NCBI RefSeq assembly: GCF_009730595.1
Contig: NZ_CP046276.1
Location: 248,001-312,000 of the forward strand
Source: Spiroplasma tabanidicola
Lineage (GTDB): Bacteria > Bacillota_I > Bacilli_A > Mycoplasmatales > Mycoplasmataceae
Direction: 5' to 3'
DNA: 64,000 nucleotides
Shown here in pieces: positions 11,235 to 36,480 of the stretch (the stretch's first letter is position 1; every line of letters starts with the position of its first letter). The notes below the pieces were generated by a model. The model was not told the origin of the DNA and did not search any database. It saw only the letters and a program-made list of their open reading frames with translations. The position numbers and the translations under genes are program-made.

Positions 11235-12671
11235 CTAATAATTAAAAATAGTTAAAAAAAATACAAAAAAAGATGTCAATAAGTAATCAATTTTTCCCAA
11301 AACTTTATTTTTAGAGTTTTTGTAAAATATTCAATTAGTATATTTTCATGGACTATTTGTTTTAATTTGCTTATGTGTTTTTTGTATATCATAAACACTT
11401 TTATCTTCATAAGCTTCTTTATAAGTGGAGTTTTGTTGAACTTCAATTAAAGGCATTCATTCACTAAATGAGTTTGAATGTAATTGCCCATCAAAAGTTT
11501 CTACTACAAAAATTTTTGTTTTATTTTTATAAAAGACTGGCTCGCCATTAGAATGTGGTATATAAAATTTATTTTGGTATTTTATTGTAGAACCTTTATT
11601 AATAGTTCGTTCAAATCTTCTTGATAAATAAAAGTCAATGTTTTTATGTTCTTTAAAAATAGCAGAAGAGTTAATGATATTATTTAATTGAAGGGAAAAC
11701 TGTGAATTATATCTTTTAATATATTCATTTAAAAATGAATTTGCTTCATTTATATCTGATATATTATTTTCTTTGAGTTCCTTTGGTAGGCGATCTTGAA
11801 GTGTATTTCACAACCTTTCAATACGGCCTTTTGTTTGAGGAACACTTGAAGTTGTTAGCTTTATTCCTAAGTTATGACATAAGAATCCGTATTGTGTTAA
11901 AGAGTCAGAGTGAAGGTCTGACTCTTTTTCTTTTTGACTTCAAAATACAGTCCTTTTGTCAGTAAGTATCTCCTTTGGAATCCCATACTCTAATAAAACT
12001 TTTTTTGTTATATTGTAGTATCCCATAAGAGTTTCTTCTTTATCAAAATATAAAGCTAAAACTTTACCTGTTGCATCATCTATAAAACCATGTAAATACC
12101 ATTTCTCATTATCAACTCAGTAGTGGACTGATGCATCAGTTTGCAAGCGCTCACCAAACTCTGTTTTTCGATTTTGCATAGGATGAATATTTTCTATTGA
12201 AAGCAAAGTATTTAAATACTCTCGTTTCTCAGGTTTTTTAATATTTTCATTTTTTAATAAGTTAGTAATTTTTTGTTTAATCATTTTTTTAGTTACTTTA
12301 TGAATTCTTGGTGAATATAAATTATTCTTTTTTAATAAATTGATTAAGTAAGTATATGAAACACTTATTTGATGGTTTGATCAAAGCTTTTCTAAAAAGT
12401 GTTTATAATTATATTCTTCATATTTATTAATGTACAAGTCAATAATTTGATCACTTATTTGATGTTTTATTTTTTTATTTGATATTCTTCCAGTATTTTT
12501 GTGGATAAATGCTGTGTAACCATACTTTTTATATTTGTTAATTAATAAGTTAACATTTCTTATTGTTTGACAGATTTTTATAGCTGCAGCTTTTTTAGAT
12601 AGTTTTTCATCAATTACAGCTTTAATTATTTCCATTTTATCTTTTTCATTCATTTTTAAATATCTCCTCAT
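11235..12671 (-). CDS. Transposase, IS1202/ISNCY type, with read-through C terminus
   Basis: A 478-residue DDE transposase. An N-terminal helix-turn-helix (about residues 10-50, LSKKAAAIKICQ) precedes an integrase-like core with LQTDASVHYWVD, the strand FIDDATGKVLALYFDKEET and PQTKGRIERLWNTLQ, the family-typical third acidic region. Start ATG at 12671 follows GGGGG 8 bases upstream, as in copy 2. The expected stop is missing: copy 2 has TAG where this copy has TAC (11283-11285). The frame therefore runs through the inverted repeat and target duplication to a TAG at 11235, adding about 16 hydrophobic residues. Trp is encoded by both UGA and UGG. Confidence 0.85.
11245..11273. repeat. Left target-site duplication of IS copy 1 (29 bp)
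   Basis: A 29-base A-rich stretch that recurs without any mismatch at 12753-12781, directly outside the other end of the element. Its length agrees with the long duplications known for IS1202 (about 27 bp). Confidence 0.85.
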
Positions 12672-12752
12672 ATTTAAATCCCCCATTATAAATTATATAT
12701 TTGGGAAATTTTTATTTGTTATATATAGGGAAAATATCATATGTTATTGACA
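11274..12752 (-). mobile_element. IS1202-like (ISNCY) insertion sequence, copy 1
   Basis: A 1479-bp element bounded by imperfect inverted repeats that start TGTCAATAA and share a TTTCCC block about 20 bases in. Exact 29-bp direct repeats flank it. One transposase gene fills it. It is inserted immediately upstream of the tRNA-Ile promoter: the -35 box TTGTAA begins one base after the right-hand duplication. Copy 2 lies at 21933-23383. Intact duplication and an open transposase frame argue for recent insertion. Confidence 0.88.
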
Positions 12753-21932: not shown

Positions 21933-23383
21933 TGTCAATAACTAATCAATTTTTCCCAAAACTTTATTTTTAGAGTTTTTGTAAAATATTCAATTAGTAT
22001 ATTTTCATGGACTATTCGTTTTAATTTGCTTATGCGTTTTTTGTATATCAGAAACACTTTTATCTTCATAAGTTTCTTTATAAGTGGAGTTTTGTAGAAC
22101 TTCTATTAAAGGCATTCATTCACTAAATGAGTTTGAATATAATTGCCCATCAAAAGTTTCTACTACTAATATTTTAGTTTTATTTTTATAAAAGACTGGC
22201 TCGCCATTCGAGTGTGGTAAATAAAATTTATGTTGGTATTTTATTGTATATACTTTATTAATAGTTCGTTCAAATCTTCTTTATAAATAAAAGTCTATGT
22301 TTTTATGTTCTTTAAAAATAGCAAAAGAGTTAATGATATTATTGAACTGAACTAAAAATTGTGAATTATATATTTTAATATATTATTTATACCAGATATA
22401 TTATTTTTTGAGCTCCTTTGGTAGGCGATCTTGAAGTGTATTTTACAATCTTTCAATACGGCCTTTTGTTTGATGAACACTCGAAGTTGTTAGCTTAATT
22501 TCTAAGTTATGACATAAGAATACGTATTGTGTTAAAGAATCAGAGTGTAGATCTGACTCTTTTTCTTTTTGACTGCAAAAAAACAGTCCTTTTGTCAGTA
22601 AGTATTTCTTTAGGAGTCCCATATAACAATAAAACTTTTTTTGTTATATTTTAGTATCTCATAAGAGTTTCTTCTTTATCAAAATATAAAGCTAAAAAAT
22701 TACCTGTTGTATCACCTATAAAACCATGTAAATACCATTTCTCATTATCAACTCAGTAGAGGATCGACCCATCAGTTTGCAAGCGCTCACTAAACTCTGT
22801 TTTTGATTTTGCATAGGATGAATATTTTCTATTGAAAGCAAAGTATTTAAATACTCTCGTTTCTCAAGATTTTAAATATTGTCATTTTTTAATGAGTTAG
22901 TAATTTTTGTTTAATCATTTTTTTAGTTACTTTATGAATTCTTTGTTAATATAAATTATTCTCTTTTTATAAGTTAATTAAGTAAGTATATGAAACACTT
23001 ATTTGATGGTTTGATCAAAGCTTTTCTAGAAAGTGTTTATAATTATGTTCTCATATTTATTAATGTATAAGTCAATTATTCTATCACTTATTTGATGTTT
23101 TATTTTTTTATTTGACATTCTTCCTGTATTTTTGTGAATAAATGCTGTGTAACCATACTTTTTATATTTTTTAATTAATAAGTTAACATTTCTTATTGTT
23201 TGACAGATTTTTATTGCTGCAGCTTTTTTAGATAGTTTTTCATCAATTACAGCTTTAATTATTTCTATTTTATTTTTTTCATTCCTTTTTAAATATCTCC
23301 TCATAATTAAACCCCCAGTTAAATTATATATTTGGGAAATTTTTATTTGTTATATATAGGGAAAATATCATATGTTATTGACA
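21933..23383 (-). mobile_element. IS1202-like insertion sequence, copy 2 (decayed)
   Basis: A 1451-bp element with the same ends as copy 1 (TGTCAATAA inverted repeats), about 28 bases shorter through small deletions. Flanked by 29-bp direct repeats with one mismatch. The target was the leuS terminator. Scattered substitutions and indels show that it inserted earlier than copy 1. Confidence 0.87.
21945..23304 (-). pseudogene. Transposase pseudogene of IS copy 2
   Basis: Close relative of the copy 1 transposase. The first 88 or so codons are open and nearly identical, then a one-base deletion near 23050 shifts the frame; further indels and stops occur downstream. It keeps what I take to be the native TAG stop inside the left inverted repeat (about 21942-21945), which copy 1 has lost. 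Cannot make active transposase. Confidence 0.85.
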
Positions 23384-26046: not shown

Positions 26047-26079
26047 GCATATTCTATCAAGAATAGAATATGTTTTTTT
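26047..26079 (+). terminator. Terminator after the ABC-2 transporter
   Basis: CATATTCTAT and ATAGAATATG pair, followed by seven T residues; it isolates the helicase operon from upstream genes. Confidence 0.82.
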
Positions 26080-26156: not shown

Positions 26157-29100
26157 ATGGGCAAAATTATCGAAAATGATGGGTCTAAAGAACTTTTTTT
26201 AGATTTTTCTTATATTCAAAATGTTATGTTCAAAGAAAACATTGCAGAGCTTGATAATATAATTTCAAAATTAGAAATTGAAAATATAAATTCTTATCAA
26301 GAATTACAACAGTTTTTGAGAAACTCAATGATTAAGCAAGCTTTTATTTGTTTGATTGATGACAAAACTAGACAATTAAATAAAAAAAGTAAAGATAATT
26401 ACGTTTATGATGCAATAATTAGAATCGAATTAAATACTACAAGTCAATCAAAGTTACCCAAAGATACTTATCTTGGTTTTTTTGTTAATATTAATCCTAA
26501 AACTCCGTATTTAACAATTTCATCGATCTTTGAAACAAGATTGAAACCAATTGCTCAAGAATTCGAGTCAATTATTCAAGAATCAAGAATTCAATTAATT
26601 AGATATCAAGGTCAAATAACTCCTGAAGAAGTTTTAAGAAGAAATGTTTTAAATTCTTCTAATATCGCAAGTATCGGAAAATTAGTTTCAAAATTTGAAG
26701 AAGAAAAAAATAAATGATTGAATTATTTAGATTTTTCTTATGATTTATTGGAAGTGCAAAGAAAAAATTCTTTACCTTATTTAAATGCTATTGCTAAAAA
26801 AGTTATAAAGATAGATAAAAGAGATTATAAGGATAACTTAAAGTTTTTAAAGTTTTATAATTTAAAAAGTAACACGTATTTATTTTTAGAAGAAAATCAA
26901 AAAGAAGTTTTAGAATCATATAATATAGATTATTTAGTTACAAATTTAATAATTTTAGATGTATTGTGCGATAATACTGAAAAATTAGAAAAAATAATTA
27001 AAACAAATGAATTAGCAATTGTCCCTTTAAAAGTAAGTAAAACTTTACCAGCAATGTATAATATACAAAAAAATATAAAAGATATTTTTGATTTCAGTTT
27101 TGAAAAATTACAAGATAATTTTATTGTTATTAATTTAACGATTTTTATAGAAGAAAATAGTAATATTGAAAGTTTGATGCATTATTGAGAAAAAAATAAC
27201 GAAACAATATTTGGAGGTAGTCTTGAACTTGAAGAAACTAAAAAGTATTTTTATGAAGAACTAAATGAATGAAAAGTTCATCAGCTAGTTTATGAAAGTG
27301 AAAACAATTTTGATTACAGTTTATTTAAAAATAAAAATAATATTGATTCATTAGCATGTGGTTATCTAGCTTATATCGGAATTGGTGAAGATGTACTAAT
27401 TGAAAGAGGGAGACAAGTTTTAAAAAGAATAAGCGAAGGAAATACAAAAAATCCATATCTTATAAATTATTTATTTAACACAAAGCTAATTGATTTATCA
27501 GAAACAAACAATTCTTTTACTTTAGATGATAAAGATTTTTATTATACTTTAAATAGAGAACAAAAAGAAGCTGTTAAAAAAGCTTTAAATTCTAAAGATG
27601 TTTTTTTATTACAAGGACCTCCTGGAACAGGAAAGACGCAAGTAATCTGTGAAATAATATTTCAATTAACAAAAATAAATAGAAAAGTCTTAGTTTCAAG
27701 TCAAAACCATGAAGCAATAAAAAATGTTGTTGACAGATTACCTTATGAACCAAATATCAACAGAATTAGATTAACTAATCAGATAAATTTAAAAACTAAA
27801 TCAGTCAACAATTTTTCTCCTGAAAGAAGTGTTTATAATTATTACAAGTCAATTGCAAAATCTATGTTTGATGATATGATGGTTGAACAAGAAGCCATAA
27901 ATGAAGTAAAAGAAATAGAAAACAAGTTAGAAAAGCTTTTAATCAACAGTAAAGGTTATCATCAAAAAAATACACAAGCAAAAAAAATTCAAAGCGAAAT
28001 TGAAGAAATAAATCAAGAAATTAATAAACTAAAAACTGAATATCTAGAAAAAATTCATTTTAGAAATTCTTTAAAAGAAGAGTTGTTAAATGTAGAAAAT
28101 TTAATTGAAGTATTAAGTAATTTTGATTTTAATATATCAATAAATATATCTAATTTAATTTACCAACTTTATAATCAAGAAATCAAATTTTTATTTGAAG
28201 AGTATATTTTAAATAATCTAAATGAAAATATATATGAAGAAAATGTTTTTTATAAAATAAGAAAAGTCTGTGAACTTGTTTTATTTAAAGATGAAATATT
28301 TATTTCTATAAAAAATTTAAAAAAAAGAATAGTTGATCTTAAAAGAGATGCTGAGTTTGAATTAGCAGAAAAAGAAGAAGGAAGTCTTAATGCTTTAGAA
28401 AAACTATTATTAAAAAACGAAGGTATAAGAAGTTTAATAAGTATACTTTCTCAATTTAGAAATAAATTAGAAGATCTTAAAATAGATATTAATTATAAGT
28501 TAGAAAAAATAAAAAGTGATGAAAACTTAGAAAACAAAATTGATAACTTAGAAATTAAAAAAAATGAGTTGTATGTTACTAGACAGAATTTATCTGAACT
28601 TGCAGGGGAAAATGCAGCAGAAGTTAGAGAACTAATAAAATTTGCTAATAAAAAATTTAATTTAAGTTTAGGAATTACTGATGTAGATTTAGAAGAACAA
28701 GTTAAAAATCAATTAGAGATATATGGAAAAAGCTTACAAAAAAGAAAAGAAAAAACAGACACATTAAAAAGCTTTTATGAGTTAGTATCTTCTTATGCTA
28801 GTGACAACTATAATATAACTAATGAATGGGAAAAGGAAATTGCAACAGAAAATTTCACTCCACAAATGATTCAAGAGTCTAGAAGATACACAAGCTCAGT
28901 TTTAAATAATTTAGTAAATGTATATGCAATGACACTAACTTCAACTAATATGTTTAGATTTAATAAAGATGAAAGTGCAAAAAAATTAGGTTTAGAAGAA
29001 ATAAATTTAAAAACTATGGATGTTGATGTCGTAATTATTGATGAAGCTTCTAAAGCAACTTTGTTAGAAATATTAATGCCCTTAATATATGGAAAGTCCT

Positions 29101-30005
29101 TAATTTTAGTAGGAGATTACAGACAACTTCCACCAATTTTAAAGTTAAAACCTTCTGATGTTGATTTAGTAAATGAAATAACTAAGAAAAATTATAACTA
29201 TCAAGAGCTTTATGAATTGCTAGATCAATCAGCATTTAAAAGTTTAATTTCTGCAAAAAATAAAAGTATTACTACAATGTTAAAAACTCAGTATAGAAGT
29301 CATAGACAAATAATGGAAGTAGTAAATAAGTTTTATGACAATGAATTAAGAGTTGAACCTCAAGTAAGCGAACAAAAAATGCATGACCTATCAGTTTTAT
29401 CAAAATATGATAATGAAATTATTAATTCAAAAAACTCAGTTTATTGAATTGATTCAACATACAACTTAAGTGAAGAAGTTAGTTTTGAAGAAGGAGAAGA
29501 ATATTCAACTAGTTTATATAATAGTTTAGAAATAGATTTAACTTGTGAACTTGTAAAAAATATTGATAAAAGTTTAGAACAAAAAAAATTAAAAATAAAA
29601 CCTTCATTAGCAATAATAAGTTTTTATGCTTTACATGTAACTAAATTAAAAAAAGTTTTAAATAAAATAAAAATAAAAAATATTAATTTAATAATAAATA
29701 CAGTAGATGATTTTCAAGGAAAAGAAGCTGATTATGTTATTGTAAATATGGTTAGAAATCCAAAAAGACTTTCTTCAAAAAGTGGTAGAGAGTTCTTAAA
29801 AAAATATGAACGTATAAATGTTGCTTTTAGTAGAGCAAGAGAATTATTAATAATAGTTGGAGCACAAAGAGCAGTTAATGATATTACAGTTCAAATTCCA
29901 ACTGTAAATGACCCAAGTATTTCAAATACTTATGATGTTTATTCCGATATAATTTCAAAGATTCATTATGATGGTGGAACATTAACAACAAAAGATATTT
30001 TATAG
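26157..30005 (+). CDS. Large SF1 DNA/RNA helicase (UPF1/Dna2-like), first gene of a five-gene cassette
   Basis: A 1282-residue protein. The N-terminal 480 residues match no domain I know. Then come Walker A QGPPGTGKT (487-494), a 470-residue insert with long coiled coil (about 570-800), the DEAD-type motif VVIIDEASKAT (about 958), LILVGDYRQLPP (about 984), TQYRSH (about 1044), TVDDFQGKEADYVIV (about 1181) and NVAFSRARELLIIVG (about 1220). These are SF1 helicase motifs of the AAA_11/AAA_12 type. GGTGGT precedes the ATG; TATAAT at 26130-26135 is a plausible -10 element. The next gene starts 10 bases after the stop. Such helicases often serve in defence or nucleic-acid repair systems; the role here is not known. 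Confidence 0.85.
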
Positions 30006-30015
30006 GAGGTGTAAT

Positions 30016-32286
30016 ATGATAATAGATAAAGTTGAAATTTTATATGATAAGCAATTGTTGCCATTAAAAATTTTATACTCTGAAATTAGAAAACCTACTT
30101 TCATAGAATTTTTAGTTTTGTCAATTATTATTGAACATCCTAAAAAAAATTTAAGTTTAAAAGAAATTTTAAATGAAGATTTTAAAATTACAAATACAGA
30201 TTTTTTTGAAAGAGCTTTAAAAGATTTAGTAGCATATAAAATTGTAGATCTTAATAAAACAAAATCTGGTTGAAGTACATTGGGAATTGATATTGAAGTT
30301 GAAAAACTACAAGTTGATTCAAGTATAAAAAAACAATTCTTACAAAAAGATTATACAATTTCTCAAAATAATAAAAGTTATGATATTAAATATGTTTATG
30401 ATCCAATAAGAAAAACTTATGAAGTTATAAATGACATAGATTGAGATAAACGAGTTAAAGATGTAAAGTTTTCTTATAACTTAAAAATAAGTTATCAGGA
30501 TAAAGATTTTTTAAACAAAAAATTTATTACAAATAATATAAATAATTTTATAAAAAATAATAAAGATATTTTTGGAGAAAATTTTATTTTTAACGATTTA
30601 AAAATAAATAACGACCTTGGAATAGAAGATATAGATAATGTTAAAAGTTTAGTAAACAATGTAGTATGTGCGAATGAAATAAGTATTGAAATAACAAAAA
30701 AAAACAATTTTAAAATTATTTCAAAAGAAAATTTTTTTGAAAATTTTTTAAAAGAAAACTCAAATGTTGAAAGTGAAATTATTTTAAATGTTTTACAACA
30801 ATATAATAAAAAAATTCTTGATGTATTCAATCCTAAAAAAGCAATTGAAGATACAAATAACTTTTTATTAGAACCAGATTTAATTTCAAATATTAATATT
30901 AAAACAAGTCAAAATCTTTTACTTGTTAATAATCATGATGTTAAAAGTTTTGATAAATTATTAATAAATAAGCATTTATTATCCACTGCAAAAATAATTA
31001 TTTTTTATAATTCAAGAGCAAATGACAAAACTATAGAAACAAAAAATGGAAGAATAATAGCTTATGTTGATAGTAGTAAAAGTAAGTTATTAGATGAAAA
31101 TACTTTAATTTATATTGATTCAGAAAGTCAGATTGAAGGATATGCAATAGCAAACAAAAGTATAAATGAAGTTAAAATAAATTTACCAGTGTTTTATAAA
31201 CATAAAAATAAAACCAAAATTGACTTAAATGATATTTTTGAAGACAATTTAGAAAGATTACTAGATAATTATAGAGATAATCTATTTGGAAACGATTTAA
31301 AAAAATCTACAATAACATTTTTGTTGTTAAAAAGAATTGGAAGAGAAGACAAATTATTTGAAATATTGTATGAATTCTTAAAAAAAGATATTGATTATGG
31401 AAAAAACTTTAAAAATCTAACTAATGTTTTTTTGGAAGAAAATAACAAAGATGCAATATTATTTTTAGAAAAAGTCTTAAAAGAAGTTTTTATTAATGTT
31501 TCTAAAAAAAGAACAGCAAAAGATATAATCAACTTAATAGAAAAATACAATTGATTAAACACTTCAGAATTTTTAGAAATGATAAATAATATTAATTTAG
31601 AAAATGATATGGAAAATTTATTTAAAGTTAATGCAATATTAGATTCTAGAAAAATTGATGGTTGAAAAGGGAATATAAGAAATTGTTTAGTCGAATTATT
31701 TAAATATTCTAAAAACAGACTTGTTCCTGATTTACTGGATATAAATAAATATAACTCATTAACTTGAGAACAACATGCATCTACAATAAATAGCATTGGA
31801 AGCATTACAAAAAGTTTATACACTAATGATTACGAAAAAGTGCAATCCAATTACTCCAGTATGTTAAATAAATTAGTTGATATAATTAAAAGTAATAATA
31901 ATATATATGATTATAAAAACTATTTATTAAGTATTGGAGATTGTATTATTGATTTTTATAAAGAGTATTATAATTATAAAATAAACGAAATACAAAATTT
32001 AGACCAACAAGACATTAACTATAAAGCTAAAATTTTAGCTGCAAACTTTATAAGTAATTTAGAAGAAAAAATTGATTCACTTATTTCTGAAGAAGCAGAA
32101 AGTTTACCAGTTGAAATAAAACTAGAGTGAGCAAAATTTATTGAAAATAAAACTCATGAAGTTGATAAAATTTTAAAAGATGATGTCACAATTTTATATA
32201 GTGCATTAAATTTATTATTCGCAAAAACTGAGGTACAATCAGAAAAAAGTTTAGAACATTATCAAAATAGATTTAGAGGTATTTAA
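30016..32286 (+). CDS. Cassette protein 2, unknown (756 aa)
   Basis: Soluble protein with no family that I recognise. Residues 15-85 look like a winged-helix unit (LSLKEILNEDFKITNTDFFERALKDL read in two parts). A Lys/Asn-rich middle follows, with beta-rich stretches near residues 300-390 (LLLVNNHDVKSF, IIIFYNSRAND), and a helical C-terminal half. GGAGG lies 7 bases before the ATG. It is placed between the helicase and the coiled-coil gene with gaps of 10 bases and 1 base, so it is surely co-transcribed. Possible adaptor or nucleic-acid-binding subunit; inference only. Confidence 0.75.
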
Positions 32287-32287
32287 T

Positions 32288-33379
32288 ATGAGTATGACAG
32301 CAGAAGAAGTATTGTTTAACTGTAAAAAACAGTTTGACTTCATTAAAACAGATATTGATACATTACTAAGATACGTAAAAGAATTACTTGAACAATGCAG
32401 AGATATTGATAATTCTTCATTCTTTGTAGAACAGTTTAAAGAAATTGAAAAAGTAATTAAAAATGAAATTGAAGATTTAAAAATATCAGAAGAGTATGTC
32501 AAAGAAGTCGAAACAGAAACTCACATTGCTATAGAAAGATATCATGAAATTCAAAGGTTTGCAGAACAAAAAAGAGATAAAATAGCAGAAATAAAAGCTA
32601 GGGTACTAGGTTTGAGAAAAGATGTTGTTAAAAAAGAACAAGAAACTATTGCTAAAAATTTATATAGTTCTGTATATGAAAGTTTTGAGCAATTAAAAAA
32701 TATATTGATTAATAGTCAAAAAAATATTGATGATAAAACAATCATGCTTAATTATTTAAACGATAACGAAGCTGTTTTAAAAAACTTTTCTAAGGAAAAT
32801 ATTATAAATAAAGCAAACTCATATATATCAGCGCAAAAAGAATCAATAAAATATTTATCAAAACAAGTAGTAAACGATATAGAAAGAAATTATTCATATG
32901 ATAACGATTTGATAGAAGCAATCGAAAAAGAAAAAATTGAATATTTAAATAATTTAAATGAAGATAATTTTATTAAAAATTCAAAGATTTTTTTTTCAAA
33001 AGTATCTAAAAATATAGAAAATGAATCTATTCGAAAAGATAATGTTATAAAAATTATAAATGCGATTCAAGCAACAGGATATTTAGTAGATGAAAATGAT
33101 ATTAAAAAAATTAAGGAAAAAAATCTAGTTTTAATTCATGCAGTAAAAGAAACTGGAGAGTCAGCTGATTTTGCTGTTAGATTAGATGGGAGTTTTCTTT
33201 ATAACTATGAAGGTTTTGAGGGTCATGAACATGATGCTGATGCTGATGCATTTTTAAAAAAAATGAGAGAGCAAGGTATCACTTCATGAGAAGCGTTTAA
33301 TAAGCAGTATCGTGAACCAAAATACGTTTCAAAAAATAGTGCAATAATAAATTCTAAAAAGAAAAGTTCAGGTAAATAG
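32288..33379 (+). CDS. Cassette protein 3, coiled-coil protein with conserved-looking C-terminal domain (363 aa)
   Basis: Starts one base after the previous stop, with AGAGG as SD. Residues about 15-120 and 150-270 are heptad-rich helices. The C-terminal 90 residues look globular and contain ETGESADFAVRLDGSFLYN followed by YEGFEGHEHDADADAFLKKM, rich in Asp/His/Glu. The end is basic. No enzyme motif is seen. It could be a scaffold or the substrate-recognition partner of the AAA+ protein encoded next. Confidence 0.75.
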
Positions 33380-33387
33380 GAGTAATT

Positions 33388-35184
33388 ATGAGTGTAAAAA
33401 GAGAAATGCAACAATTAAAAAATTTAGTTGGGATTAAAAAAGCAATAATTCTAGAAGGAAATATTGATGATATATATCAACTTGAAGGTAAATATGTTAA
33501 TATACATAATTTTTTAGCTAACATCTTTTTAGAAAAAAAATATGTAGATAGTTACTTTTATGATCGAAACTCAGGGATAAAAGGAAAAAAAATACAAAAT
33601 TTAATCATTGAAAACTTAGAACAAGAGGATAATAACAGTATGAATGATATGTTTAATACTGCAAATGAAAATGATAATAAGAAAAATGAAGGACAACTTA
33701 ATCTAAAAAAAATAATCGATTTTTATAAAATACTAAACTCTAATTTAAATCGTACTGATGAAAGAAAAGTTGGTTTTATTGCAGATTACACAGATTATGT
33801 TTTTAGTGATCAAAGTTTAGATGCAGACGATAGAGCTATTTTGACAGAGTTTTCAAAATCTTTAAAAGAAAGTGATTTTGTTATTTCCAAAGTAGATGAA
33901 CTTTTAAATTGTGTGATTTTTTTGACTAAAAAAATTAATCAGTTACCTCCTAGTTTATATTTAGATAACCCTGAAATAAAAATTTTATCTCTACCCAAAC
34001 CAAATAGAGATGAAAGAAAAGAATTTTTATTAACAGTCAAATCAATGATCCAAGTATCAGATATCGCAACAGAATTTGAAAATATTGTAGATGCTACTGA
34101 GGGTTGAACTTTAAAAGAGTTATCGCATTTTGTAAAATTTTGTTGTAACTTTAATATTCCAACAACTTTTAATAAAATATTTAACATTTATTTATACGGA
34201 GAAAAAACTTCACCATGAGAAGATTTAGATTATGAAAAAATGGTAAACATAAAAAATGAGTTAAAAAGTAGAGTTATTGGTCAAGATGATGCAATTGAAA
34301 AAGTTTCTAAGGTTATTTATAAAGCATTTACAGGATTAACTGGAATAACATACTCTTCAAAAAGATCAAAACCTAAAGGAACTTTATTTTTTGTAGGACC
34401 AACTGGTACAGGTAAAACTGAACTAGCAAAAGCAATAACACAATTTTTATTTAATGATGAAGCAAATTTAATTAGATTTGATATGTCTGAATACGGACAA
34501 GAAAATGCAGATCAAAAATTAATTGGTGCGCCTCCTGGTTATGTAGGATTTGAAGGCGGTGGACAACTAACAAATGCTGTAAAAGAAAAACCATTTTCAG
34601 TAATCTTGTTTGATGAAATTGAAAAAGCTAGTCCTAAAATTTTTGATAAATTTTTACAAGTTTTAGAAGATGGTAGACTTTCTGATAATACTGGACAAAC
34701 AGTTAGTTTTAGTGAAAGTTTTATAATATTTACTTCAAACATTGGAGCAGCAGAAGTGGAACCAAATGAAGATAAAGAAAAAGTATATAAAAGTTTTATA
34801 GAAAAAGTTCAACATCATTTTACTCATGAATTAAATAGACCTGAACTTTTAGGAAGGTTTGGAAATAATATTGTTCCGTTTAACTTTATAAGAAATAATG
34901 AATTAAAAGCAAAAATAGTTAGTCAAAAGTTAAAACCATTAAAAATTGCAATTTATGAAAAATATAAAGCTGAACTGCATATTGATATTACAAATCAAGA
35001 AATATTAAATATTATTTTAAAAGATGCAGATGAAAAAAGAGGAGGAAGAGATGTTCTTAACTCGTTAGAAACTAATCTAGTTGATCCCCTTTCAGAATTT
35101 CTTTTTGAAAATCTTAAAAATATTAAACCAGGTACTAAAATATATGTAGATGCAGCTAATAATAAAGTTGCTTTCAAAATATAA
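33388..35184 (+). CDS. Cassette protein 4, ClpB/ClpA-like AAA+ ATPase with degenerate first domain (598 aa)
   Basis: The C-terminal half is a full Clp-type AAA+ module: Walker A GPTGTGKT (about residue 337), pore loop GYVGFEGGGQLT (about 383), Walker B VILFDEIEKA (about 405), sensor 1 FTSNIG, the arginine-finger segment ELNRPELLGRFGN, and sensor 2 KRGGRDVLN (about 551). The N-terminal half has the spacing of an AAA+ domain (AIILEGNIDDIY, VGFIADYTDYVF, LPKPNRDERKEF) but lacks a Walker A, so it is probably an inactive ring. No IGL/IGF loop for ClpP binding is seen. It is likely a protein remodeller for the cassette. SD GGAG; the stop overlaps the next start (TAATG). Confidence 0.88.
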
Positions 35185-35780
35185 TGTCTAATATAAACTT
35201 TGCAAAAATTTTACTTAATAGCGAGATTGAAGGACCTGGTACTAGATTTGTAATTTGATTTCAAGGTTGCAACATTGGCTGTAAAGGTTGCTCAAATAAA
35301 GAACTTTTAAAATTAGAAAAAAAATTTTTTATTAAGACAAGCTTATTGTTTGAAAAAATTTTAGAAGCTAAAGATAAGTTTAATATTGAAGGGATAACTC
35401 TATTGGGTGGAGAACCTTTTTTGCAACCAGAAGCATTAAAAGAAATCGTTAATTTTTGTTATAAAAACAAACTTACTATTATTTGCTTTACAGGATATAT
35501 TTATGAAAAACTTCTTCCTGAATTTAAAGATATTTTAAATAAAATAGATATCCTTATTGATGGACCATTTATAATGAGTCAATTAGATATAAAAAGAAGA
35601 TTAATTGGTAGTAAAAATCAAAGAGTTTTAAAATTAACAGATACTTATAAAAATTGTGATTATTTTGAAAAACCTCACTCAGAAGTAGAAATTCAAATTT
35701 ATAACGACCGATTTTCCATGAATGGTGATGGTGCAGTTTTTGATAATGAAAAAGGAGAATTTATTTTCAAATTAGAATAG
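35184..35780 (+). CDS. Cassette protein 5, NrdG-like radical SAM protein (198 aa)
   Basis: Compact radical SAM enzyme with the cluster motif CNIGCKGC (CxxxCxxC) at about residues 30-37, FQGC before it, and the SAM-binding GGEPF (about 75). The fold resembles the activase of anaerobic ribonucleotide reductase (NrdG), but no NrdD partner is in the window, and translational coupling to the AAA+ gene ties it to this cassette instead. It may modify a protein or nucleotide partner of the system. The ATG overlaps the previous stop by one base. Confidence 0.87.
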
Positions 35781-35835: not shown

Positions 35836-36480
35836 ATGTCAAAATGTTTAGAATTATTAAAAACAAGAAGATCTACAAAGCGCTGAAAAGATCAATTTAA
35901 ATTAAGTGATGAACAAAAAATCACTATTTTAGATGCGATAAGATTTGCACCTTCTTCAAACGGAATGGAACCCTTTAGAGTTTTATATATAGAGGATATG
36001 GATATTAGAAAAGAACTAAATCAAGCATTTTTTGGTCAATCAGGTGTTTTAACTGCTTCTGCATTATTGATATGAATTACACCAAGTGAAAATTGAATTG
36101 AAAATAAAGTTGTGCCAGTTCAAGTAGCTAGGAACATACCAGAACAATTTGCCACTCTAAGAGAAGGGAAAATTAATGGATTAAGAGCAACTTGAAAAAA
36201 TCATAATGTTAGTGCAAATCAATGAGCGGCAAGACAAGCTTATATTTCTTTGGGAACAATGATTGTTACAGCAGCAGAACAGGGAATTAATACTTGTCCA
36301 CTAGAAGGTTTTATTCCAGGCGATGTTAAAGAAGTTCTAGTAAAAACTGGTTTAATGGATAAAGAAAATGAAGAAGTAAGTTTAGCTTGTTTTGTAGGAA
36401 AAGTTGATGAAAGTGCTGAAATGCATTATGCATTTAGTAAATCTAGAAAACCAGCTGAAGAAAGTTACAAAGTTGTTTAA
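35836..36480 (+). CDS. Nitroreductase family protein 1
   Basis: FMN-dependent oxidoreductase of 214 residues. Family marks are RRSTKRWKDQFKLS near the N terminus, IRFAPSSNGMEPFRVL, QAYISLGTMIVTAAEQGI (with the FMN contact region) and CPLEGF. NAD(P)H-linked reduction of quinones or nitro compounds is the family's usual activity. GAGGAG precedes the ATG. It is followed after 10 bases by a paralogue. Confidence 0.9.

Follow-up and report, generated by a model that had tools for sequence, protein, structure and literature searches.

Five genes lie head to tail in a 64,000-nucleotide stretch of the Spiroplasma tabanidicola genome (the window), which raises the question of whether an SF1 helicase, two proteins of unrecognized family, an AAA+ protein, and a radical SAM enzyme form one system and what such a system would do. 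Reading open reading frames with code 4 (TGA = Trp) gives the order helicase, adaptor/effector, coiled-coil, AAA+, and radical SAM (Table 1), with gaps of 10, 1, 8, and -1 bases, exactly as an earlier note made from the sequence had placed them. That note also put a terminator upstream, at 26047-26079, where we find a terminator-like hairpin with an A+T-rich stem of 10 bp and a run of seven T after it, present once in the window. The hairpin is missing from a G+C-based terminator scan because its stem contains too few G-C pairs. Downstream, the nitroreductases named as the other boundary do start at 35836, but relatives do not always have them next to the cassette.

Table 1. Features of the five-gene cassette (window positions)
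Feature	Position	Strand	Length or basis
Terminator-like hairpin, A+T-rich; upstream cassette boundary	26048-26079	+	read directly from sequence
Protein 1: UPF1/IGHMBP2-type SF1 helicase	26157-30005	+	1282 aa
Protein 1 insertion (residues 561-930), predicted helical/coiled coil	27837-28946	+	heptad-like periodicity
Protein 2: adaptor/effector-slot protein	30016-32286	+	756 aa
Protein 2 shared N-terminal region (~residues 1-260), winged-helix-like start (putative)	30016-30795	+	homology to relatives
Protein 2 C-terminal region (residues 421-756), PIN/HEPN slot in relatives	31276-32283	+	calls in relatives
Protein 3: coiled-coil protein	32288-33379	+	363 aa
Protein 3 conserved C-terminal alpha-beta-beta-beta-beta-alpha domain (~residues 240-345)	33005-33322	+	profile A4
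Protein 4: AAA+ protein, ClpB-D2-type module	33388-35184	+	598 aa
Protein 4 clade-diagnostic N-terminal domain (residues 1-280)	33388-34227	+	profile A5
Protein 5: NrdG-like single-domain radical SAM enzyme	35184-35780	+	198 aa
Protein 5 CxxxCxxC iron-sulfur motif (C29, C33, C36)	35268-35291	+	translation; conserved in aligned relatives

The five genes are one unit, conserved in order and orientation from Mollicutes to proteobacterial plasmids. Of the 20 Spiroplasma-family loci fetched, 18 have all five genes in order (the other two being one decayed locus and one contig fragment). The full set also occurs in six further Bacilli/Mollicute genomes and on five plasmids, from Acinetobacter, Moellerella, Polaromonas, Leisingera, and Photobacterium. 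The earlier note had named conserved synteny among distant bacteria as support for a system; it is found across Mollicutes, further Bacilli, and the Alpha-, Beta-, and Gammaproteobacteria. Another copy lies on a recombinase-linked IMG/VR contig, adjoined by a serine recombinase; a search of E. coli genomes for close copies of the Moellerella cassette found none. In mycoplasmas the cassette has four genes and lacks the radical SAM gene. Purifying selection acts on each of the five genes, with dN/dS between 0.02 and 0.23 in the two pairs compared, where dS is close to saturation.

The family calls proposed for the helicase (AAA_11/AAA_12), the AAA+ protein (AAA_2, ClpB-like), and the radical SAM enzyme (Fer4_12) were all confirmed. 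Protein 1 matches Pfam AAA_12 (E = 7.9e-39) and AAA_11 (E = 3.5e-29), PADLOC MkoA (E = 6e-96), and TIGR00376 (1.7e-62, yet under that model's cut-off); it had no match in the phage records searched. Its motor motifs are intact, with Walker A at residue 487, DEAS at 962, and later motifs at 986, 1044, 1184, and 1221. The 475 residues separating Walker A from DEAS hold an insertion with heptad-like periodicity (3.46; p = 0.006) and 1 proline in 370 residues. For protein 4 (Pfam AAA_2, E = 1.8e-50), ClpB structures align to residues 281-595, an intact D2-type AAA+ module shared with the ClpB/ClpA/ClpC chaperones. In place of the remainder of those chaperones, protein 4 has a unique N-terminal domain, whose profile matches in 59 of 392 genomes of the phylum. 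Against the curated ClpB equivalog it scores 266 bits, with D2 alone aligned, versus a cut-off of 1232; it is not a ClpB/ClpA disaggregase.

Proteins 2 and 3 gave no significant match in Pfam, PADLOC, or NCBIfam, nor any convincing match in solved-structure searches. The AlphaFold2 (AF2) model of protein 3 contains long helices (mean pLDDT 57), for which Foldseek returned nothing with an E value of <0.001. Its C-terminal domain, the element order of which is taken from AF2 at a pLDDT of ~60 to 73, has homologues in Bacilli (4e-22), on proteobacterial plasmids (9e-15), and in mycoplasmas (1e-4). The AF2 model of protein 2, with one relative in the alignment, has a pLDDT of 34 and is too poor for fold reading. 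The N-terminal region of protein 2 has homologues in the corresponding protein from Bacilli (E = 8e-9) and from proteobacterial plasmids (3e-5), and residue pattern and analogy suggest a winged-helix-like start. Judged by domain and motif calls, protein 2 is modular, joining a constant N terminus to a C terminus that is PIN in proteobacterial plasmids, HEPN in Bacilli, and an unrecognized helical region here. PIN_4 was called in four plasmid copies (E = 1.5e-19, 4.6e-22, 7.3e-24, and 3.1e-6), and DUF4145 in a relative (E = 4e-5); each of the 7 Bacilli-type copies carries Rx4H toward its C terminus. Rx4H is absent from all 22 Spiroplasma-family copies, which display no known nuclease motif.

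This helicase/adaptor pair resembles one that has been described. In CoCoNuT systems, CnuH is an SF1 helicase of the UPF1-like kind whose Walker A motif is followed by a large helical, coiled-coil insertion, CnuE is an elongated winged helix with an interchangeable C-terminal nuclease such as HEPN, and types II and III include the McrB-type GTPase CnuB with the McrC homologue CnuC (PMC11090510). Protein 1 is likewise UPF1-like with a large, predicted helical/coiled-coil insertion after Walker A, the next gene encodes a candidate adaptor with (in relatives) a swappable nuclease, and restriction neighbors are frequent; CnuE was compared by description only, and its nuclease has counterparts in the PIN and HEPN of relatives but none recognized in the window protein. 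However, none of the five proteins matches McrBC or has an McrB-type best match; a coiled-coil protein, a ClpB-D2-type AAA+ protein, and a radical SAM enzyme stand instead, and plasmid cassettes use PIN as effector. Because McrB and McrC are absent, we reject assignment of the cassette to CoCoNuT. The main text of that paper mentions neither radical SAM, ClpB, 4Fe-4S, nor Spiroplasma (PMC11090510). The literature searched, mostly open access, contained no description of the whole five-gene set. Parts of the set do have known counterparts, in view of the likeness to CnuH/CnuE and the occurrence of the AAA+/radical SAM pair with kinase-helicase-nuclease operons (below).

Neighbors of the cassette outside the genus include restriction genes of types I, II, and III, along with McrBC, DarT, Abi_C, and an Mza-like set. 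Plasmid cassettes lie near DarT, HsdS/ArdA/AbaSI, or HsdR_N with TIR, together with integrases and IS elements; other relatives have McrBC, HsdR, AIPR with Z1, HATPase, and a D12 methylase, or an NgoFVII-type enzyme with a C5/N4 methylase. Among 17 Mollicute cassettes, 6 have a DNA methyltransferase at a distance of 15 kb or less, where 1.5 were expected (p of about 0.002, for two families and approximate expectations). The protein 4 tree places an order-level relative within the clade of a different family, and it places the second copy from a genus member among the mycoplasmas. A conserved operon, horizontal spread, and defence-island neighbors, as in a mobile defence system, were thus all observed.

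Taken together, the block is probably a single system of the biological-conflict (immunity) kind, a candidate helicase-coupled defence with exchangeable effectors. The earlier suggestion of a defence or nucleoprotein quality-control system gains support from the distant synteny, the restriction and abortive-infection neighbors, and the methyltransferase excess. We propose that the products would act as a complex, in which the ClpB-D2-type ring of protein 4, with protein 3, would recognize or remodel a nucleoprotein complex of the invader. Protein 1, the UPF1-type helicase, would then translocate along exposed RNA or a single strand, and protein 2, docked onto the helicase through its N-terminal adaptor, would deliver its swappable C-terminal effector against a presumed RNA target, with anti-phage activity as the expected outcome. 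In relatives that effector would be an RNase of the PIN or HEPN type, and in the window's genus it would be the unrecognized helical domain. Because four-gene versions without it exist, the radical SAM enzyme is read as an accessory that may modify a component or product; columns conserved only in five-gene forms gave a list with no clear candidate for its substrate.

Within the window's genus, the cassette is vertically fixed rather than island borne, since it is present in 20 of 20 sampled genomes, mostly at a leuS/folD housekeeping locus, and co-varies with LeuS. The variable flanks and defence-island neighbors that the earlier note had named as support occur outside the genus; the window's own cassette lies outside any defence island. 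Such universal presence at a housekeeping locus, tracking LeuS, is unusual for a defence system and speaks against immunity, as does a protein 2 without a known nuclease motif. The main rival is accordingly domestication: an ancestor of the lineage would have captured a mobile conflict system, lost the nuclease, and turned a UPF1-like helicase and ClpB-like remodeler to RNA or nucleoprotein quality control in cellular stress or surveillance. The genus-wide co-inheritance, the purifying selection on every gene, the missing nuclease motif in the 22 family copies, and the location outside an island all favor this account. We nevertheless regard it as unlikely. In G013, a member of the genus, stops interrupt genes 1, 2, and 5, so loss of the cassette is tolerated, and several sister genera within the family lack it. 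Proteins 2 and 3 evolve fastest in the cassette (mean distances of 0.65 and 0.56, compared to 0.24 for LeuS), and relatives elsewhere are mobile and island linked.

Still less probable is a selfish module that shields its carrier plasmid or island from competing mobile elements instead of the cell from phages. Recombinase linkage and frequent carriage on plasmids alongside antirestriction and restriction genes are consistent with this, but long-term vertical maintenance within one bacterial genus argues against it. A metabolic or cofactor pathway built around glycyl-radical activation by protein 5, with helper proteins, is very improbable. Protein 5 (Fer4_12, E = 4.1e-34) is, like NrdG-type activases and prokaryotic viperins, a small CxxxCxxC radical SAM enzyme; NrdG/PFL-activase models are its closest, and a Redoxin domain is fused or adjacent in some relatives. 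However, it falls under both curated cut-offs (99.5 bits versus 126.1 for NrdG, TIGR02491; 36.2 versus 180 for viperin, NF038283), other NrdG-like genes exist elsewhere in the genome, none of the five proteins is a glycyl-radical enzyme, and the four-gene versions dispense with protein 5. The idea that unrelated genes came together here by accident and persist through linkage, for which the sole point is the lack of a named system, is refuted by an order conserved across phyla, plasmids, and chromosomes.

Returning to the immunity reading, a broader version can be put forward only tentatively. Mokosh systems are defined by an MkoA-type helicase with a kinase and/or PLD nuclease partner. Protein 1 shares the AAA_11/AAA_12-type SF1 helicase with Mokosh type I and with kinase-DUF4011 helicase-nucleases, but the window's cassette has no kinase, PLD, or REase domain. 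In Rhizobium, the AAA+/radical SAM pair lies beside a kinase-DUF4011-helicase-MTES_1575 fusion, and in Clostridia it accompanies a split kinase plus helicase-nuclease. Perhaps the cassette belongs to an unnamed, phylum-crossing immune system in which the ClpB-type AAA+/radical SAM unit is a reusable sensing or licensing unit for different helicase-effector modules (adaptor-PIN, adaptor-HEPN, and kinase-helicase-REase). Radical chemistry would then serve for activation or modification, and the Spiroplasma version would be a core chromosomal form with a new or non-nuclease effector. If the immunity reading holds, the cassette would be an uncatalogued multigene immune system, unusual in having a radical SAM component, in which effectors (PIN, HEPN, or unknown) are swapped upon a constant motor core. 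It would be a candidate for phage resistance in wall-less, reduced-genome bacteria and would link CnuHE-type and Mokosh-type systems through a common AAA+/radical SAM unit.

As for the remaining partners in the Clostridial operon, its kinase and FHA protein were rejected as homologues of protein 2, no homology being found. Its MSGPK coiled-coil protein aligns in register but weakly with protein 3, and homology is not claimed; hhalign gave E values of 0.0017 to 0.07 for whole proteins and 0.0067 for pooled C-terminal profiles.

The five closely packed genes in the window, read with TGA as Trp, belong together as one conserved unit, in which the ATPase motors are intact and the effector slot is modular; the same translation bore out the five gene lengths and gaps given in the earlier note. 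Protein 1, a UPF1/IGHMBP2-type SF1 helicase, has its motor motifs in place, with 475 residues separating Walker A from DEAS; its residues 561 to 930 show heptad-like periodicity and contain only one proline. Protein 4 joins a clade-specific N-terminal domain to an intact ClpB-D2-type AAA+ module (residues 281 to 595 align to solved ClpB structures), and protein 5, an NrdG-like radical SAM enzyme whose CxxxCxxC motif is intact, scores below both the NrdG and viperin cutoffs. In one sister genus, a Redoxin/AhpC-TSA (thiol-peroxidase-type) domain is fused to the radical SAM protein or follows it directly, which suggests that the iron-sulfur enzyme is shielded from peroxide or works with a redox partner.

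Coordinates of the cassette, its surroundings, and related loci (first five rows, window positions, the window being C1:248001-312000 of the 1.28-Mb, one-contig source genome G000; L, fetched loci with their own coordinates)
Feature	Location	Strand	Remark
Five-gene cassette	26157-35780	+	
A+T-rich hairpin and T tract	26048-26079		Upstream boundary of cassette
Nitroreductases	from 35836		Downstream of cassette
Integrase-core (rve) transposase	11235-12686	-	Full length
92-aa fragment	23026-23304	-	Upstream of cassette
N6/N4 methyltransferase match	G000:C1:548416-549753		Outside window
G013 cassette	L139 5899-15424		
G406 cassette	L221 6207-14179		
Mza-like set	L200 838-8620		
Radical SAM and Redoxin/AhpC-TSA	L137 10038-11144; L138 8872-9982; L221 14184-15294		L221 by sequence likeness
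Clostridia operon and Rhizobium AAA+/radical SAM/kinase-DUF4011-helicase-nuclease set	L008 32-13634; L049 14-13589; L231 11506-21602		

Proteins 2 and 3 gave no significant match in Pfam, PADLOC, or NCBIfam. By profile comparison, the N-terminal part of protein 2 connects the Spiroplasma-type form to the Bacilli (E value of 8e-9) and plasmid (3e-5) forms and these two to each other (2.5e-6), with a weak link to the mycoplasma form (4e-4). For protein 3, the shared part is the C-terminal domain, which links the Spiroplasma-type form to those of the Bacilli (4e-22), the plasmids (9e-15), and the mycoplasmas (1e-4). Structure prediction yielded no usable model for protein 2 and a weak one for protein 3. 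The C terminus of protein 2 varies between groups: PIN_4 occupies it in all four plasmid copies scanned, one Bacilli copy matches DUF4145 (4e-5), a Pfam family that we take to be of the HEPN type, and a C-terminal Rx4H motif is present in 7 of 7 Bacilli-type and 2 of 7 mycoplasma copies and absent from all 22 Spiroplasma-family copies. Since this region is conserved within the window's genus about as well as the middle of protein 2, it is probably functional there, and the retention of this putative effector under selection argues against simple decay.

Every one of the 20 genus genomes sampled, counting that of the window, has protein 2, which also occurs in four further genera of the family; of the 20 fetched family loci, 18 show the complete five-gene order. 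The cassette of genus member G013 is decayed (stops in genes 1, 2, and 5; genes 3 and 4 still open), and the locus fetched from G025 is a fragment of a contig that includes portions of genes 2 and 4. In the genus, the cassette mostly sits between leuS and folD/fhs. For each of its proteins, distances track those of LeuS (Mantel rho of 0.61 to 0.83, P ≤ 0.0035), so that in this genus it has been inherited vertically. Evolution is fast in proteins 2 and 3, whose mean distances are 0.65 and 0.56, against 0.29 in protein 4 and 0.24 in LeuS; dN/dS values of 0.02 to 0.23 in two pairs, with dS near saturation, indicate purifying selection on the cassette genes. The cassette is dispensable because it is absent from several sister genera, as judged with profiles of the protein 3 C terminus and the protein 4 N terminus. 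Conversion to a cellular surveillance role in the window's genus is a serious rival reading, though a less likely one than the candidate immune role that we prefer. In genome G406, gene 2 is broken in two, and a pair of opposite-strand open reading frames separates gene 3 from gene 4; this cassette may also be decaying.

Across the phylum, the protein 3 C-terminal and protein 4 N-terminal profiles found matches in 42 and 59 of 392 genomes, respectively. Six genomes (G212, G293, G282, G392, G412, and G482) have complete sets with the window's gene order, gene 5 of G212 being interrupted or diverged in the fetched copy; a seventh, G121, has genes 3 to 5 and lacks genes 1 and 2. A tblastn search against plasmids recovered the full set from Acinetobacter, Moellerella, Polaromonas, Leisingera, and Photobacterium, and a serine recombinase adjoins a complete set on an IMG/VR contig. 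Mycoplasma-type families have a four-gene form that lacks the radical SAM gene, and two members of the window's genus carry this form too, as a second copy. In the protein 4 tree, each group lies on one side of a well-supported branch, with G392, from the window's order, placed among Bacilli copies of another family and the second copy of one genus member among the four-gene mycoplasma forms. These two placements indicate horizontal transfer, with the caveat that branches in the four-gene clade are long.

Outside the genus locus, cassettes keep company with defense genes. Nearby on plasmids are a DarT-family gene and a recombinase (Acinetobacter), HsdS, ArdA, and an AbaSI-family nuclease (Moellerella), and an HsdR N-terminal protein and a TIR protein (Photobacterium); Abi_C lies upstream in G293. 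Mollicute loci have McrBC, HsdR, an AIPR/Z1/HATPase/D12-methylase set, or an NgoFVII-type restriction enzyme with a C5/N4 methylase nearby. In 6 of 17 Mollicute loci, versus 1.5 expected (P of ∼0.002), the cassette has a strong N6 or N6/N4 methyltransferase match no more than 15 kb away; the sample is small and the expected value is approximate. Next to one genus member's second cassette copy is an Mza-like set (AIPR, HATPase_c_3, and Z1 proteins and a D12 methylase).

Among known systems, the CnuH/CnuE pair of CoCoNuTs fits protein 1 and, more tentatively, protein 2. In PMC11090510, CnuH is a UPF1-like helicase with a helical coiled-coil insertion behind Walker A, and helicases of its family are typically paired with a CnuE-like partner; CnuE, encoded downstream, joins an elongated winged helix to nucleases that can be swapped. 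The cassette, however, lacks McrB and McrC, by which CoCoNuTs are recognized in the census, and the main text of that paper makes no mention of radical SAM, ClpB, 4Fe-4S, or Spiroplasma. In PADLOC, matches are confined to the helicase (MkoA) and a portion of the AAA+ protein (PDC-M37B). Taken together, these comparisons place the cassette as a putative variant of helicase-effector conflict systems, outside the families named in the open-license papers compared. The AAA+/radical SAM pair also occurs in Rhizobium with a kinase-DUF4011-helicase-MTES_1575 fusion, which recalls type I Mokosh, and in Clostridia, within a conserved operon for which no named-system match was found (helicase-MTES_1575 nuclease, Ser/Thr kinase, MSGPK coiled-coil protein, zinc-ribbon FHA protein, radical SAM, AAA+, PP2C, and DUF4236).

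In the proposed mechanism, the AAA+ ring and the coiled-coil protein would sense or remodel a nucleoprotein target, the protein 1 helicase would translocate, and protein 2, as adaptor, would deliver the effector. RNA is the probable target, because the effectors in relatives are RNases, and the radical SAM step would be accessory, given that four-gene forms lack it.

Two further features of the strain were observed. The 92-aa fragment close to the cassette nearly duplicates the beginning of the rve transposase and is an insertion sequence remnant. The genome's best N6/N4 methyltransferase match is interrupted by stops, and this restriction-modification locus may have decayed in this strain.
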